From Candidatus Micrarchaeum sp. (GTDB taxonomy: Archaea; SpSt-1190; DYHY01), in the NCBI GenBank assembly GCA_020723935.1, contig DYHY01000003.1:1-47415 (forward strand): 47,415 bases of DNA, given 5' to 3'. Below are positions 7,983-32,236 of this stretch, one piece after another. The notes beneath the pieces were generated by a model, which saw only the letters and a list, made by a program, of their open reading frames with translations, was not told the DNA's origin and ran no database searches. A program made the translations under genes and the position numbers. Position 1 is the first letter of the stretch. The number at the start of each line of letters is the position of its first letter.

Positions 7983-10427
7983 ATGGCCGATTCCGCCTCT
8001 CCAGCATCCCCGCAGCAGCAGCCGCAGCAGCCTCCTCAGCAGGCCCCTTCGGGCCCGCTCCCCGACAACAGGTGGGTGATAACGAAGGAGGCGGAAATCT
8101 TCTCCAATTGGGAAAAGGCGGGCATCTACGCCTTCGATCCGGGGAAGAGGCAGCGGGTCTGGACGATCGACACGCCCCCGCCGTACGCGAGCGGCACCTG
8201 GCACATGGGCGGCGCCGTCCACTACGCGAGCATAGACATCATCGCGCGCTACCGCAGGATGAAGGGGTACGCGGTCAACTACATGATGGGGATAGACCGA
8301 AACGGCCTGCCCATCGAGGTGCAGACGGAGAAGGAATACAAGATCCGGATGTATGACACGGACAGGAAGCACTTCCTGAAGCTGTGCCGCGAGCTCCTCG
8401 ACAAGTACGAGTCCGAGATCCTGCGCGTCTGCAAGCGCCTCGGCTGCTCCAACAACTCCCTCTCCGCGGAAGGCGTCTACCGCACGGACTCGCCGGAATA
8501 CCGGGCAGCCACCCAGGCGACCTTCATCGACATGTGGAACAAGGGCTACGTCTTCGAGGACGAGCGCCCGAACAACTGGTGCACGGACTGCGGGACCACG
8601 ATAGCGGACGCGGAGATAGACTACAAGGACGTCCCCTCCAAACTCCTTCACCTCAAGTTCGCGATCAAGGGCGCGGGCGGCGAGCACCTGGTCGTCGCGA
8701 CGACGCGCCCCGAGATGCTCTTCGCCTGCGCGTGCGTGCTCGTCAACCCCGAGGACGCTAGGTACAGGAAATACCACAACAAGAAGCTGATAGTCCCGAT
8801 CTTCGACAAGGAGGTCCCGATAATAGCGCATCCGGAGGCCGCGATGAACTTCGGCTCCGGCGCGGTGATGATATGCAGCTACGGCGACTACACGGACGTG
8901 CGCCTCTTCCGCGACCTGAAGCTTGCGCCGACCAAAGCGATAACGCCTGACGGCAAGATGACGGCGGCGGCCGGCGCCTACCAGGGCCTGCGCGTGAACA
9001 AGGCGCGCCTGCAGATAGCCGAGGACCTGGAGAAGGCCGGCCACGTCGTCAAGATCGAGCAGATAAGCCACAGGACGCCGGTGTGCTGGAGGAGCAAGAC
9101 GCCGATAGAGTTCGTGACAATGCCCGAATACTACCTCACGCAGAAGGACGTCGTCCCGCAGCTGAGGGAGGTCGCGGACAAGCTCAGGTTCCACCCCGCC
9201 CAGGCCAAGCAGATACTCCTCGACTGGCTCACCTCGGTCTCTATAGACTGGCCCATCTCGAGGAGGCGCTACTACGGGACGGAGCTCCCGATCTGGTACT
9301 GCGACAAGTGCAAGCAGGTGGCGCTCCCGGAGCCCGGCAAGTATTACCAGCCCTGGGTGGACGACTGCCCGCTGAAGGACTGCCCGAAATGCGGCGGGAA
9401 GACGTTCACCGGCGAGAAGCGCACCTTCGACACGTGGTTTGACTCCAGCATCTCGGAGCTCGTCGTCTCGGGATATCTCCACAACTCCGGGCTCTTCGAG
9501 CGCTCGTTCCCCGCCTCCGTGCGCCCGCAAGGGAAGGACATTGTGCGCACGTGGCTGCACTACACGCTCCTTCGCGCATACCTGCTCTTCAAGAGGCCCG
9601 CCTTCGAGCACGTCTGGATATCCGGCCACGTCGTTGACGAGAAGGGGGAGAAGATGTCCAAGTCCGTCGGGAACGTCGTGAAGCCCGAGCCGATGCTCGA
9701 CAGGTACGGCGCGGACGCCCTGCGCCTCTTCGCATCCAGCGAAGCGCTCCTGGGGAGCGACCTGAGGTTCTCCGAGGAGCGCCTTGCCGGGGCGGCCAAG
9801 TTCGTCCAGAAGCTCTACAACGTGTCGCGCTTCATCTCCACCTTCCCGCAGGCGGGGAAGCCAAAGAAGCTCTCCCCCGCGGACGCGTGGATCCTGGGGC
9901 TCTTGGACAAGGTCGTCGAGGACGCCGACGCAGGATACGCGGAGATGGACTTCTTCGTCCCGGGGAACAGGATAAAGAACTTCACCTGGGACGTGTTCGC
10001 GAGCCACTACTTGGAACTCGTCAAGGGCCGCGCGTACAACAGGGACGGCAGGTTCTCGGCCGAGGAGCAGGAGAGCGCGCACTACGCCCTCCACCAGTGC
10101 CTGAGGACGATCCTCAAGCTCCTCGCCCCGATATCGCCCTTCGTCACCGAGCACGTCTGGCTTGCCCTCTATTCCGAGGGCGGCAGGTCGCTGCACCTGG
10201 AGGCGTTCCCGGAGAAGCTGGGCCTGAAGGCGGACGATGCGATCACCGCGAAGCTAGCCGAAGTGAACTCGCTTGCCTGGAAGGCGAAGAAGGACGCCGC
10301 CAAGTCTATGAAGGACCCCCTGTCGGAACTGGTCATCCCGCAGGAGCTGGAGCTGCTTTCGGCGGACCTGGCGGCGATGCACAACGCCCTCAAGGTGCGC
10401 ACGGGCGCGCCGGCCGCTTCCATCTAG
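7983..10427 (+). CDS. valS: Valyl-tRNA synthetase
   Basis: WTIDTPPPYASGTWHMGGAVHYASIDIIARYRRMKGYAVNYMMGIDRNGLPIE; editing domain LVVATTRPEMLFAC; KMSKSVGNVV. Confidence 0.9.
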   Translation: MADSASPASPQQQPQQPPQQAPSGPLPDNRWVITKEAEIFSNWEKAGIYAFDPGKRQRVWTIDTPPPYASGTWHMGGAVHYASIDIIARYRRMKGYAVNYMMGIDRNGLPIEVQTEKEYKIRMYDTDRKHFLKLCRELLDKYESEILRVCKRLGCSNNSLSAEGVYRTDSPEYRAATQATFIDMWNKGYVFEDERPNNWCTDCGTTIADAEIDYKDVPSKLLHLKFAIKGAGGEHLVVATTRPEMLFACACVLVNPEDARYRKYHNKKLIVPIFDKEVPIIAHPEAAMNFGSGAVMICSYGDYTDVRLFRDLKLAPTKAITPDGKMTAAAGAYQGLRVNKARLQIAEDLEKAGHVVKIEQISHRTPVCWRSKTPIEFVTMPEYYLTQKDVVPQLREVADKLRFHPAQAKQILLDWLTSVSIDWPISRRRYYGTELPIWYCDKCKQVALPEPGKYYQPWVDDCPLKDCPKCGGKTFTGEKRTFDTWFDSSISELVVSGYLHNSGLFERSFPASVRPQGKDIVRTWLHYTLLRAYLLFKRPAFEHVWISGHVVDEKGEKMSKSVGNVVKPEPMLDRYGADALRLFASSEALLGSDLRFSEERLAGAAKFVQKLYNVSRFISTFPQAGKPKKLSPADAWILGLLDKVVEDADAGYAEMDFFVPGNRIKNFTWDVFASHYLELVKGRAYNRDGRFSAEEQESAHYALHQCLRTILKLLAPISPFVTEHVWLALYSEGGRSLHLEAFPEKLGLKADDAITAKLAEVNSLAWKAKKDAAKSMKDPLSELVIPQELELLSADLAAMHNALKVRTGAPAASI

Positions 10428-27879: not shown

Positions 27880-28176
27880 CTATTTCCCTTCCGCTTTCTC
27901 GCCCTCTGCCCGGGCTTCGCCCTCTGCCCTGAGCCAGTCCTCGCGCGGGAGTATCGCGACGCCCGCTCGCCCCTTCATGGGCTTCCCGAACTTGGCGAGG
28001 AGATCCTGGGCGGTGAGGCTGGAGCCCTGCGCGCATTCCTGGCAGACCTTCGCGTCGAGGCCCTTGTCCGAATCGAAGAAGACGCGCACCTTCACACCCC
28101 CCTTCCCGCAGACGAAGCATTTCCCTTCCTCGAGCTCAGGCGTTATCCCTATCGGCATCCAGGGAAAGCCGCCCAC
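27880..28176 (-). CDS. Zinc-binding hypothetical protein
   Basis: CFVCGKGG...VCQECAQG; possible alternative start MPIGITPELEEG. Confidence 0.6.
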   Translation of the reverse strand: MGGFPWMPIGITPELEEGKCFVCGKGGVKVRVFFDSDKGLDAKVCQECAQGSSLTAQDLLAKFGKPMKGRAGVAILPREDWLRAEGEARAEGEKAEGK

Positions 28177-28221: not shown

Positions 28222-28337
28222 GCGCCCGCGTCATCCCATTTTCTTTTTCAGCGCCAGCTTCAGGAGCCCTCCGACGAGGGCTTTCTCGGCGCGCCCGCGT
28301 CATCCCATTTTCTTTTTCAACGCCAGCTTCAGGAGCC
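28222..28337. repeat. 47-bp near-perfect direct repeat, 69-bp period (two copies)
   Basis: gcgcccgcgtcatcccattttctttttcarcgccagcttcaggagcc at 28222-28268 and 28291-28337, one mismatch seen. Confidence 0.9.
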
Positions 28338-28632
28338 TCTTGTGCTTCTCCTCGTCGTAGTCCGTGGACGCGAGCAGGGCGAGGATCGCGGGGTGGCCGG
28401 AGACTATCACCCCCTGGACGGAGGCGTCCGTCGCCCGCTCCTCCTGCTCTAGGACCGACGAGACGAGGACGCGCGACTCCTCGGCCGTGGCTGCTGCGCC
28501 GCTGCCGCCGGACCTTCCCGAGGACGCGATGAGCTCGGAGACGATGTCGGCGTGGCGCAGGCTGTCCGTGCCTATCTGGCGAAGGAGCAGTTTCACGAAC
28601 GGGTCCCTGGCGCTCGGGCTCGCCGCAGGCAT
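28300..28632 (-). pseudogene. Ferritin-like domain protein, apparently 5'-truncated
   Basis: DPFVKLLLRQIGTDSLRHADIVSELIASS...VLEQEERATD...LLASTDYDEEKHKRLLKLALKKKMG; the usual first helix is absent and replaced by sequence antisense to the FTR1 fragment. Confidence 0.55.
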
Positions 28633-28936
28633 CGCGGCCCTTGCGGTCGCATCGGTCCTGCTCCTGAAGCTCGAGGCGAGGCTCCCGCTGAAGACACTCT
28701 TCCTCGCGACGGGCGCGGTGCTCGTGGTCCTGGCAGTCTCCTTCTCGGGGACCGCGGTCCACGAGTTCCAGGAGGCGCATATCGTCCCGGAAACCGCGCT
28801 CGCCTGGGGCCTGACCGCGGAAACCCTTGCGGCCCAGGCCCTCTTCGCTCTCGCCACCCTCTTCTTGGTGGTCCTCCCGCACCTCAAGATGGAGAAAGAA
28901 GCCGGCGCCAAGAAGCCCAAGGCCAAACCTATTTAA
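28604..28936 (+). pseudogene. C-terminal fragment of FTR1-family iron permease
   Basis: RLPLKTLFLATGAVLVVLAVSFSGTAVHEFQEAHIVPET resembles the FTR1 C-terminal region; N-terminal REGLE-type helices absent. Confidence 0.65.
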
Positions 28937-28959: not shown

Positions 28960-29394
28960 GTGAAGAGTAGCCCCGCCGGCCGCAGGGTCTCCCAAGTATC
29001 AATAGAATTCTTGATAGTCTCCGCCCTCGTCCTCCTGATACTCGCCCCGCTATGGATGTCGATGCTGCGCGCGATACAGGCGCAGCAGGACGACCTGCGG
29101 GTCTCCCAGGCGAGGACCGCCCTCCAGAGAATAGTGCAGTCAGCGGACCTAGTCTACGTCCAGGGCGCTCCGGCATCCGTCGTCGTGACGGTCTATGTCC
29201 CCTCCGGCGTCTCCAACTACTCCCTCTTGAGCAACGAGACGGTCTACATCCTCGCCCTCGGCTCGGCCCACACCGATGTCGTCGAGCCCACCAAAACGCC
29301 CCTTTCCGGATCCCTCCCGACGACGGAGGGCACCTACAAGCTCATTGTCAAGGCGGAGGCCACGGGAATTGTCAACGTCACAGGCTTCTCTTGA
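28960..29394 (+). CDS. Pilin-like protein with class III-type signal
   Basis: GTG start; GRRVSQVSIEFLIVSALVLLILAPLWMSML N-terminal signal/TM; extracellular-type remainder. Confidence 0.7.
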   Translation: MKSSPAGRRVSQVSIEFLIVSALVLLILAPLWMSMLRAIQAQQDDLRVSQARTALQRIVQSADLVYVQGAPASVVVTVYVPSGVSNYSLLSNETVYILALGSAHTDVVEPTKTPLSGSLPTTEGTYKLIVKAEATGIVNVTGFS

Positions 29395-29761
29395 GTTCCT
29401 CGCCCTCGTCGGGTTCGTCCTGATAGTCCTGGCCGTCGCAAGCGGCATATACCTGCGCGAGCGCGCGGCGTCCGCCGAGGAGCTCCTCCTCGCCGAGTCC
29501 AAGAACGCCCTGACCTCCCTCGCGTCGGCGATCAACCAGGTGTACCTGGGCGGAGACGGCTATTCGGCGAACCTCACGCTCCCGCAAAGGATCGGCTCCT
29601 ACCAGTACAACATAACCGCCTCCTCCGGCCACCTCTACCTCAAGCTCTACGGCTTCGACCTCTCCTATTCGGCCAAGATACTTCCGGCGTCCGTGACGGG
29701 CTCCGTGCATCCGGGCACGGACGTGATATCCAACGCAGGGGGGCAAGTGATTGTCTCCTAG
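29369..29761 (+). CDS. Pilin-like protein with class III-type signal
   Basis: TTG start overlapping previous gene; STSQASLEFLALVGFVLIVLAVASGIYLRERAASAEE. Confidence 0.65.
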   Translation: MSTSQASLEFLALVGFVLIVLAVASGIYLRERAASAEELLLAESKNALTSLASAINQVYLGGDGYSANLTLPQRIGSYQYNITASSGHLYLKLYGFDLSYSAKILPASVTGSVHPGTDVISNAGGQVIVS

Positions 29762-30269
29762 CGCGCGCGCTCCGGCGGCAAGGCAAGGCCAGGTCTTCTC
29801 GATGGACTTCGTCGCGAGCATCGTCTCCTTTATGGTGTTCTTCCTGATCTTCTTCACCATCTACGGCGGGATAAAGGGACAGGCGGCGGCGTCCGCGTCC
29901 CTCAAGGACGCGCAGGAGACGGCGGCCCTCCTCTCAGACGAGCTCGTGAGGACGCAGGGGGTGCCCGCGAACTGGACCAACGAGACTGCCGTGACTATAG
30001 GCCTCGCCTCCGAGGAGGGGGTCCTCTCCTACTCCAAGGTCCGCTCGATGGGCAACATGACGTACGCCGACACGAAGGACAACCTGCTCCTGGGGGGCAT
30101 GGACTATTTCCTGAACCTCTCCTATGTCACGAACGCGACGATCTTCTCCTACGGCTCCTACCCGCCCGGCAACGCGAGCGCCGTGATACCTGTCTCCAGG
30201 ATGGTCCTCTACGACAACGGGAGCGCCCGGGGCCTTGCGATACTGAAGGTGATCGTATGGAAGGGATGA
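29751..30269 (+). CDS. Pilin-like / pilus-associated membrane-anchored protein
   Basis: RQGQVFSMDFVASIVSFMVFFLIFFTIYGG N-terminal TM, Asn-x-Thr/Ser rich exterior. Confidence 0.6.
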   Translation: MSPSARAPAARQGQVFSMDFVASIVSFMVFFLIFFTIYGGIKGQAAASASLKDAQETAALLSDELVRTQGVPANWTNETAVTIGLASEEGVLSYSKVRSMGNMTYADTKDNLLLGGMDYFLNLSYVTNATIFSYGSYPPGNASAVIPVSRMVLYDNGSARGLAILKVIVWKG

Positions 30270-32236
30270 GGGGGAGCGCGGCGGGCGGCAGCGGCGGCAG
30301 GCGGGCTTTCGTCTTCACCCTCGACGCGATGTTCGCGGTGGTGATAATAGCGGTCGCGATCGTCGCCCTCGCCTCCATCCAGCGCGCATCAATCCTCCCT
30401 AGCGGCAAGTACATCTACCTCTCGGCGATATCTAGGGACGCCGCGACGGTCCTAGAGAAGACGCGCGTCTCGGAGGCGAGGAGCATCCCGCGCATAGACG
30501 CCTACGTCCTCAACGGGACGATCCGGCCCGAGGACGCCGACAAGAGGCTGATAGATATAGTCGGCTCCCTCTACGCGGGCGGCAACATCACGGTCGCATC
30601 CGACATCCTCAACAACCTCTTCTCCGCCTTCCTCCCCTCGCGCGTCTACTACCAGATCCTCATAAACAACCAGACGCTCCTCCTCAACAACGTGAGCCAC
30701 GGTACGGAGGTCGTCACCCGCTCGATAGTCTCCGGCTACCTCTCCGGGATGCCCACGAGCGGCTACATATCGCGCGCGTGGCTCGGGAACGCGCGGGGGA
30801 ACGTGACCGAAATAATCGAGATAGCGACCCTCGGGAGCGGCTTCAGCTCCGCGTACTGGCCCACCGCGTATGGGAACCTCACGTTCGTCAAGTACGTGAA
30901 CCTCTCCTCGGTGGACAACCTCACCGCGATCTTAGCCCTCTCCTTCCACGAGGAGGGCGGGTGGGCCTACGTCTGGGTGAACAACCTCTCGGATCCGATA
31001 CCAGTGGGGAACGAGTGCTACCACCCCGTCAACGCCTGCTACGACAAGATAACGCTCAACGCCTCGCACTTCGTCGTCGGCCAGAACGCGGTGAAGGTGA
31101 CCCTGGGGACGCCCACCAACTACCACACTCACACGCATCCGGGGATGCTCCTCACGCTCAACTACAACGACAACAGGCAGACCAACTTCGTGCAGGGGAA
31201 CCCGGTCGTGGAAAGGACGAACCTCACGGAGGTCTACGGCCGGCCAGCCGCCTGGGAGATTTCCCCGTTCAACATACCAGAGGGGGCCAAGATCAGCGAC
31301 GTGTGGGTGTATGTCAAGGCCGACGGGGTGAACAAGCGCGGCGAGATATGGGTGAACAACAACCGGGTGTGGTACAACTACACGAGCGGCAGCGGGAGTT
31401 GCGCCGTCTGCATAGCCACGCTGAACGGGGCCGGCATCCTGAAGAACATAACGCGGTGGGTGTGGCAGAACGCGACGGGCCACTCGTCGGGCCAAACGAA
31501 CACCGTCGCGGTGTACCTTGACATCGCCGGCGACGACGACACGGGCGGGAACGGCGTCGACCTCCCCGTCGACGGGGCGGCCGGGTACACCAACATCTCC
31601 GGGAACAGCTACGTGCAGGTCAACTACACGCTGGCGAACCCAATAGTGAAGTTCAACTACGTGCCCTACACGCAGGTCCTGGAGATCGACCGCCTCGACG
31701 GGCAGGGGGATGCCCTCACGAAGAACGCGAACTTCACGATAGCGAACACGACGCTCGTCTCGGCTTACTACCACGACGTCCAGAGGTTCTCCTACAAGAA
31801 CGCGGTCGCCGCCTGGCACCCGCCCGAGGCCCCCCCGAGCTGGCAGGGGTACCCCAACTACCGCTGGTCGGTCAACCAGATCTTCAAGTCCCCCAACTCC
31901 AGGAACATCCCGGGCACGATCTACATCCCGCTCTCGCGCCTGCAGGTGGGGGGCATCAATTCACTGAGGACGCGCGATGGCTTCGACGGGGGCTCGAGCA
32001 GCAACTACATAATGACCAACTCGACGATCGAGTACACGATCCTCGTCCCGGCGAGCGTCCCGTACGGCGACGCGTTCGCCAACACGAGCGCCGCGGACGC
32101 GGACGCGCGGGCCCGCCTCCAGGCGGCCCTCGCGCCCTACAACATAACAGGGACGCCCGCCAGCGACATCGCGAACATCGCCGGGATCTCGTGGCTGTGG
32201 GGGCCCTCGGAACTGAAGGTGATCATAGGGACATGA
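30257..32236 (+). CDS. Large membrane-anchored pilus-associated surface protein (659 aa)
   Basis: GGRRAFVFTLDAMFAVVIIAVAIVALASIQ N-terminal helix; long sequon-rich beta-type exterior. Confidence 0.7.
   Translation: MEGMRGSAAGGSGGRRAFVFTLDAMFAVVIIAVAIVALASIQRASILPSGKYIYLSAISRDAATVLEKTRVSEARSIPRIDAYVLNGTIRPEDADKRLIDIVGSLYAGGNITVASDILNNLFSAFLPSRVYYQILINNQTLLLNNVSHGTEVVTRSIVSGYLSGMPTSGYISRAWLGNARGNVTEIIEIATLGSGFSSAYWPTAYGNLTFVKYVNLSSVDNLTAILALSFHEEGGWAYVWVNNLSDPIPVGNECYHPVNACYDKITLNASHFVVGQNAVKVTLGTPTNYHTHTHPGMLLTLNYNDNRQTNFVQGNPVVERTNLTEVYGRPAAWEISPFNIPEGAKISDVWVYVKADGVNKRGEIWVNNNRVWYNYTSGSGSCAVCIATLNGAGILKNITRWVWQNATGHSSGQTNTVAVYLDIAGDDDTGGNGVDLPVDGAAGYTNISGNSYVQVNYTLANPIVKFNYVPYTQVLEIDRLDGQGDALTKNANFTIANTTLVSAYYHDVQRFSYKNAVAAWHPPEAPPSWQGYPNYRWSVNQIFKSPNSRNIPGTIYIPLSRLQVGGINSLRTRDGFDGGSSSNYIMTNSTIEYTILVPASVPYGDAFANTSAADADARARLQAALAPYNITGTPASDIANIAGISWLWGPSELKVIIGT

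Follow-up and report, generated by a model that had tools for sequence, protein, structure and literature searches.

The window analysed here, a stretch of 47,415 nucleotides from a Candidatus Micrarchaeum sp. genome, contains two truncated genes that meet head to head: the C-terminal part of a ferritin-like protein on the minus strand and the C-terminal part of an EfeU/FTR1-type iron permease on the plus strand. The following features were delimited around their junction.

28222 to 28268, no strand: first of two direct 47-bp repeat copies (identity 98%, spacing 69 bp), a duplicate of the ferritin-like gene's 3' end
28291 to 28337, no strand: second of the two 47-bp copies, within which the ferritin-like gene has its genuine 3' end
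28300 to 28614, minus strand: ferritin-like fragment, namely helices B-D of the C-terminal domain of an HTH-ferritin-type protein, with the helix-turn-helix (HTH) and helix A absent (A4 profile, phmmer, alignments)
28361 to 28603, plus strand: extension of the FTR1 frame as shadow sequence, on the strand opposite the ferritin-like fragment; non-coding by codon usage
28589 to 28614, no strand: junction, where coding changes from the minus to the plus frame and the intergenic DNA with its promoter is gone (changepoint scan and edges of both similarities)
28604 to 28936, plus strand: C-terminal fragment of an EfeU/FTR1-type iron permease, with both RE(G/T)xE regions absent (TIGR00145 match, full-length FTR1 alignment)
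28615 to 28932, minus strand: extension of the ferritin-like frame as shadow sequence, on the strand opposite FTR1; non-coding by codon usage

Through the 47-bp repeat, the coding for LLKLALKKKMG and the following stop is present twice in succession; Tandem Repeats Finder with a minimum score of 40 reported nothing. Just downstream of the ferritin-like fragment, positions 27880-28176 (minus strand) encode a small protein with a pair of CxxC motifs (CFVCGKGG...VCQECAQG) and without a Pfam match. Positions 28960-30266 and 30257-32236 hold a series of secreted or pilin-like ORFs, all with hydrophobic N-termini; Pfam gave no match for the three tested.

Read from stop to stop, the two ORFs (210 codons on the minus strand, 28300-28932, and 191 codons on the plus strand, 28361-28936) overlapped for the most part. 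A model of codon usage, for which 13 clear genes of the window served as the training set, gave coding scores to the minus frame until about 28,600 and to the plus frame thereafter, with no gap between them. The changepoint scan found one minus-to-plus switch, with its optimum at 28589 and positions up to 28607 scoring no more than 3 bits lower; this single-switch model exceeded the models in which the minus strand or the plus strand was coding throughout by 53.5 and 56.8 bits, respectively. Because the switch falls there, the ORF stretches beyond it are shadow sequence, as a previous sequence-only reading of this DNA had proposed. Open antisense frames were frequent in the GC-rich window, so the openness of the shadow frames is expected and is no evidence of selection. 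A search of the junction region with the bacterial consensus revealed no sigma-70-like promoter pattern.

On the plus strand, FTR1 similarity extended from about 28604/28610 to 28933, followed by the stop codon at 28934-28936. The fragment matched the EfeU/Ftr1 model TIGR00145 (1.2e-9, model positions 154-212 of 282) and the EfeU model NF041756 (4.6e-8, positions 145-221 of 257). The TIGR00145 score, 38 bits where the cut-off is 303.8, was that of a C-terminal fragment only, and PF03239 reached 11.4 bits, under the Pfam cut-off. When aligned with full-length FTR1 homologues, the fragment began at residue 149 of 278, 202 of 326, 218 of 340, or 590 of 701. It thus shares the C-terminal part of the family and lacks the first half, in which the homologues carry both RE(G/T)xE motifs upstream of the position of the junction; an FTR1 C-terminal part without the N-terminal REGLE helices is what had been read from the sequence. 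Bacterial relatives of about 315-700 residues with the same C-terminal LPLK...HEFQEA...ETLAAQAL pattern were found in a scan of 85,462 genomes, and the FTR1 relatives of the fragment measured about 275-750 aa. By homologue alignment, at least about 150-215 FTR1 residues have been lost, and given a long-form ancestor the loss was possibly much larger. Elsewhere in this genome, which measures 1.14 Mb and is 91% complete, no further FTR1 piece was detected, whether the query was the EfeU/Ftr1 family model (E<=10) or a full-domain archaeal FTR1 taken from L003.

On the minus strand, ferritin-like similarity spanned 28303 to about 28614, next to a stop codon at 28300-28302. Pfam and NCBIfam yielded nothing meaningful for this fragment, a PDB sequence search gave chance-like matches only, and an AlphaFold prediction of the fragment alone had a mean pLDDT of 56. 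In a search of 397 archaeal genomes, the better relatives (5e-9 to 1.6e-7) were not stand-alone proteins; L035-L039 combined an N-terminal HTH_3-like helix-turn-helix with a C-terminal rubrerythrin-like domain, both slightly under the Pfam cut-offs. Profile A4, built from five of the HTH-fused relatives, matched the fragment at 3.4e-18 (62 bits), and its best phmmer matches among all proteins collected were likewise HTH-fused (L169, 1.5e-15; L131, 1e-14). Identity as a plain ferritin or rubrerythrin was rejected, since stand-alone proteins (L017-L019) aligned at about 30% and the HTH-fused proteins scored far better.

The fragment aligned from residue 138 of 233 in L169, 149 of 247 in L131, and 145 of 247 in L150, which places the HTH, the linker, and helix A in the missing part, about 135-150 residues when compared with intact homologues. 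No HTH was found in the minus frame upstream of the junction, where the intact relatives carry an HTH_3-like one. The family-invariant residues that fall within the fragment were kept, namely the Asp and His of helix B, the Glu of helix C, and the Asp-Glu-x-x-His of helix D. With respect to the rubrerythrin/ferritin-like superfamily (PF02915), the intact relatives match weakly and the helix C/D ligand pattern is present; however, the closest relatives are HTH-fused, the helix-B ligand position is Asp-Ser instead of Glu, and the window sequence has no helix A. The sequence-only reading had located both fragments correctly and was right about the ferritin-like domain and its missing first helix, but the HTH and linker are gone as well, and the gene probably encoded a metal-sensing HTH regulator, not a storage ferritin.

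Profile A4 recovered full-length HTH-ferritin proteins in two archaeal phyla, from about 21 of 393 genomes in the first and about 51 of 400 in the second; weaker matches were HTH-only or ferritin-only proteins. The archaeal relatives, with an N-terminal HTH and a C-terminal ferritin-like domain, were about 230-270 aa long. Neither for them nor for FTR1 was a relative with the short form seen in the window found, and by model coverage neither window protein is full length. Archaeal HTH-ferritin regulators were not found described in Pfam, in NCBIfam, or in the titles and abstract openings of the literature searched. The family is apparently an undescribed type of metalloregulator, absence from such literature being no proof of this.

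The neighbourhoods of 58 HTH-ferritin loci were fetched, and their genes were called with a simple, crude codon model. Upstream gene positions were occupied by FeoA (16), FeoB (13), ZIP (10), NRAMP (3), and FTR1 (1). A FeoA/FeoB, ZIP, NRAMP, or FTR1 gene lay no more than three genes upstream at 26 of the 58 loci, divergent at position -1 or -2 in 23 of these 26. Transporters made up 40 of the 114 genes at -1/-2 compared to 5 of the 417 genes at least five positions away; the nominal Fisher p of 2e-24 is to be read as a strong trend, since related loci are non-independent and the reference proteins were picked after the neighbourhoods had been seen. The transporter representatives were confirmed by Pfam, with one ZIP representative marginal only, and the adjacency pattern recurred in archaeal families f19, f23, f175, f186, f189, and f229. 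The window locus, with an FTR1 fragment divergent from and abutting an HTH-ferritin fragment, fits this context. From gene context and domain architecture, we lean towards reading the window as a broken member of a widespread, apparently undescribed group of archaeal metalloregulators, in which the ferritin-like four-helix domain would sense Fe (or Mn/Zn) and the attached HTH would repress divergent FeoAB, ZIP, NRAMP, or FTR1 genes.

Other neighbours were also observed. Six more HTH-ferritin loci (L149, L151, L165-L168) were divergent from a PhnD-like (PF12974) substrate-binding ABC operon, whose substrate may be a metal instead of a phosphonate; in L166-L168, a ZnuB-type ABC-3 permease gene was convergent on the opposite side of the HTH-ferritin gene. 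At loci of family f64 (L049, L132-L138, L147, and related ones), the divergent neighbour encoded a conserved, roughly 145-aa protein (MYRVYDRKMEIPIKISKGADEQAR...), for which the one member tested had no Pfam match.

An intact divergent ferritin-like/FTR1 pair, of the kind the sequence-only reading had presumed, was found at L150 (G822:C14), where an HTH-ferritin gene (9143-9886, plus strand) and an FTR1 gene (8137-8973, minus strand; PF03239 at 1e-65) lie 169 bp apart. It is the only one of four FTR1 genes in 80 genomes with HTH-ferritin or related ferritin-like proteins that adjoins an HTH-ferritin gene. Like the window, this locus has adjacent divergent genes of the two types and the same DSxRHAD motif in helix B; unlike in the window, both genes are complete and separated by an intergenic region, and the FTR1 belongs to another branch than the window FTR1 with its ETLAAQAL C-terminus (phmmer only 0.0031). 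L150 is therefore a precedent for the arrangement, not for close orthology. No genome of the window's own phylum had an intact HTH-ferritin/FTR1 pair. The sole same-family genome compared (G001) contained no match to the FTR1, the ferritin, or the DsbA-like left neighbour, so flank order was not comparable there; a weak FTR1 match in it (L012) was judged from its sequence to be rather a VIT/CCC1-type transporter.

Whatever did the cutting, both fragments are very probably remnants of a divergent HTH-ferritin/FTR1 pair. In the ancestral locus, the minus strand would have encoded an HTH-ferritin protein whose C-terminal domain sensed metal and whose N-terminal HTH bound the shared intergenic region, and the plus strand an EfeU/FTR1-type permease as the putative target of this regulator. 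A single deletion would then have joined the two gene bodies head to head. Its losses would comprise about 135-150 regulator residues (HTH, linker, and helix A) together with the promoter region and no fewer than about 150-215 FTR1 residues. The deleted length would be at least about 1 kb, a minimum derived from homologues with an intergenic region of about 170 bp if like that of L150. What is left cannot fulfil the original roles: the sensor fragment lacks both a DNA-binding domain and the helix-A glutamate, and the two RE(G/T)xE motifs are gone from the permease fragment. The earlier proposal that the 5' ends and shared promoter of a divergent iron pair were removed, by deletion or by assembly collapse, is supported by the codon-frame switch, the model coverage, and L150.

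We consider a real deletion in the cell the probable cause of the cut. The retained invariant residues, the sharp single switch, the family coverage, the L150 pair, and the neighbourhood enrichment count for it. Against it, the HTH and the FTR1 N-terminus could sit in the roughly 9% of the genome that was unrecovered, the L150 FTR1 is of another branch, no same-phylum genome shows the intact pair, the regulatory function is read from gene context only, and 32 of the 58 loci have no Fe/Mn/Zn transporter in the upstream positions. The normal codon usage of both remaining halves suggests a recent loss or else an assembly collapse of an intact locus. Such a collapse, in which the assembler merged a repeat or strain variant over the middle of an intact pair, would give the same appearance as a deletion. 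It is a possible but less probable origin: the assembly is fragmented (47 contigs), neither half shows damage in codon usage, and the near-identical 47-bp repeat about 250 bp away indicates local repeat structure, but no stray FTR1 N-terminus occurs on other contigs, the contig continues over 80.8 kb, and the junction itself showed no repeat.

An inversion or translocation that joined the gene bodies and left the 5' parts elsewhere is unlikely. One breakpoint would yield head-to-head C-terminal parts; however, the divergent order is already present in intact loci, and the absence of a reciprocal FTR1 N-terminus from the genome argues against a balanced inversion. Also unlikely are functional short forms, a truncated ferritin-like protein and a small membrane protein that would start at in-frame ATGs upstream of the junction, near 28632 and 28541, respectively, and overlap head to head. 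Both frames, though open as antisense frames in this window commonly are, lose coding-type codon usage at the junction, what is missing includes the DNA-binding domain and the permease motifs, and relatives of such lengths were not found.

The junction itself is ordinary, whether gene loss or assembly produced it; tracing it revealed a candidate regulator family in which a DNA-binding domain is combined with the fold of an iron enzyme and which lies beside four metal transporter families in several archaeal families. DtxR/IdeR and Fur are known iron regulators. The role proposed for HTH-ferritin proteins, that of a metal-sensing repressor beside iron transporters, is the same, but the sensor domain is unrelated, and intact members had no DtxR or Fur match. 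If the proposed role is true, ferritin-like domains would take part in transcriptional control by sensing metal, and archaeal lineages would gain a directly testable candidate iron regulator.
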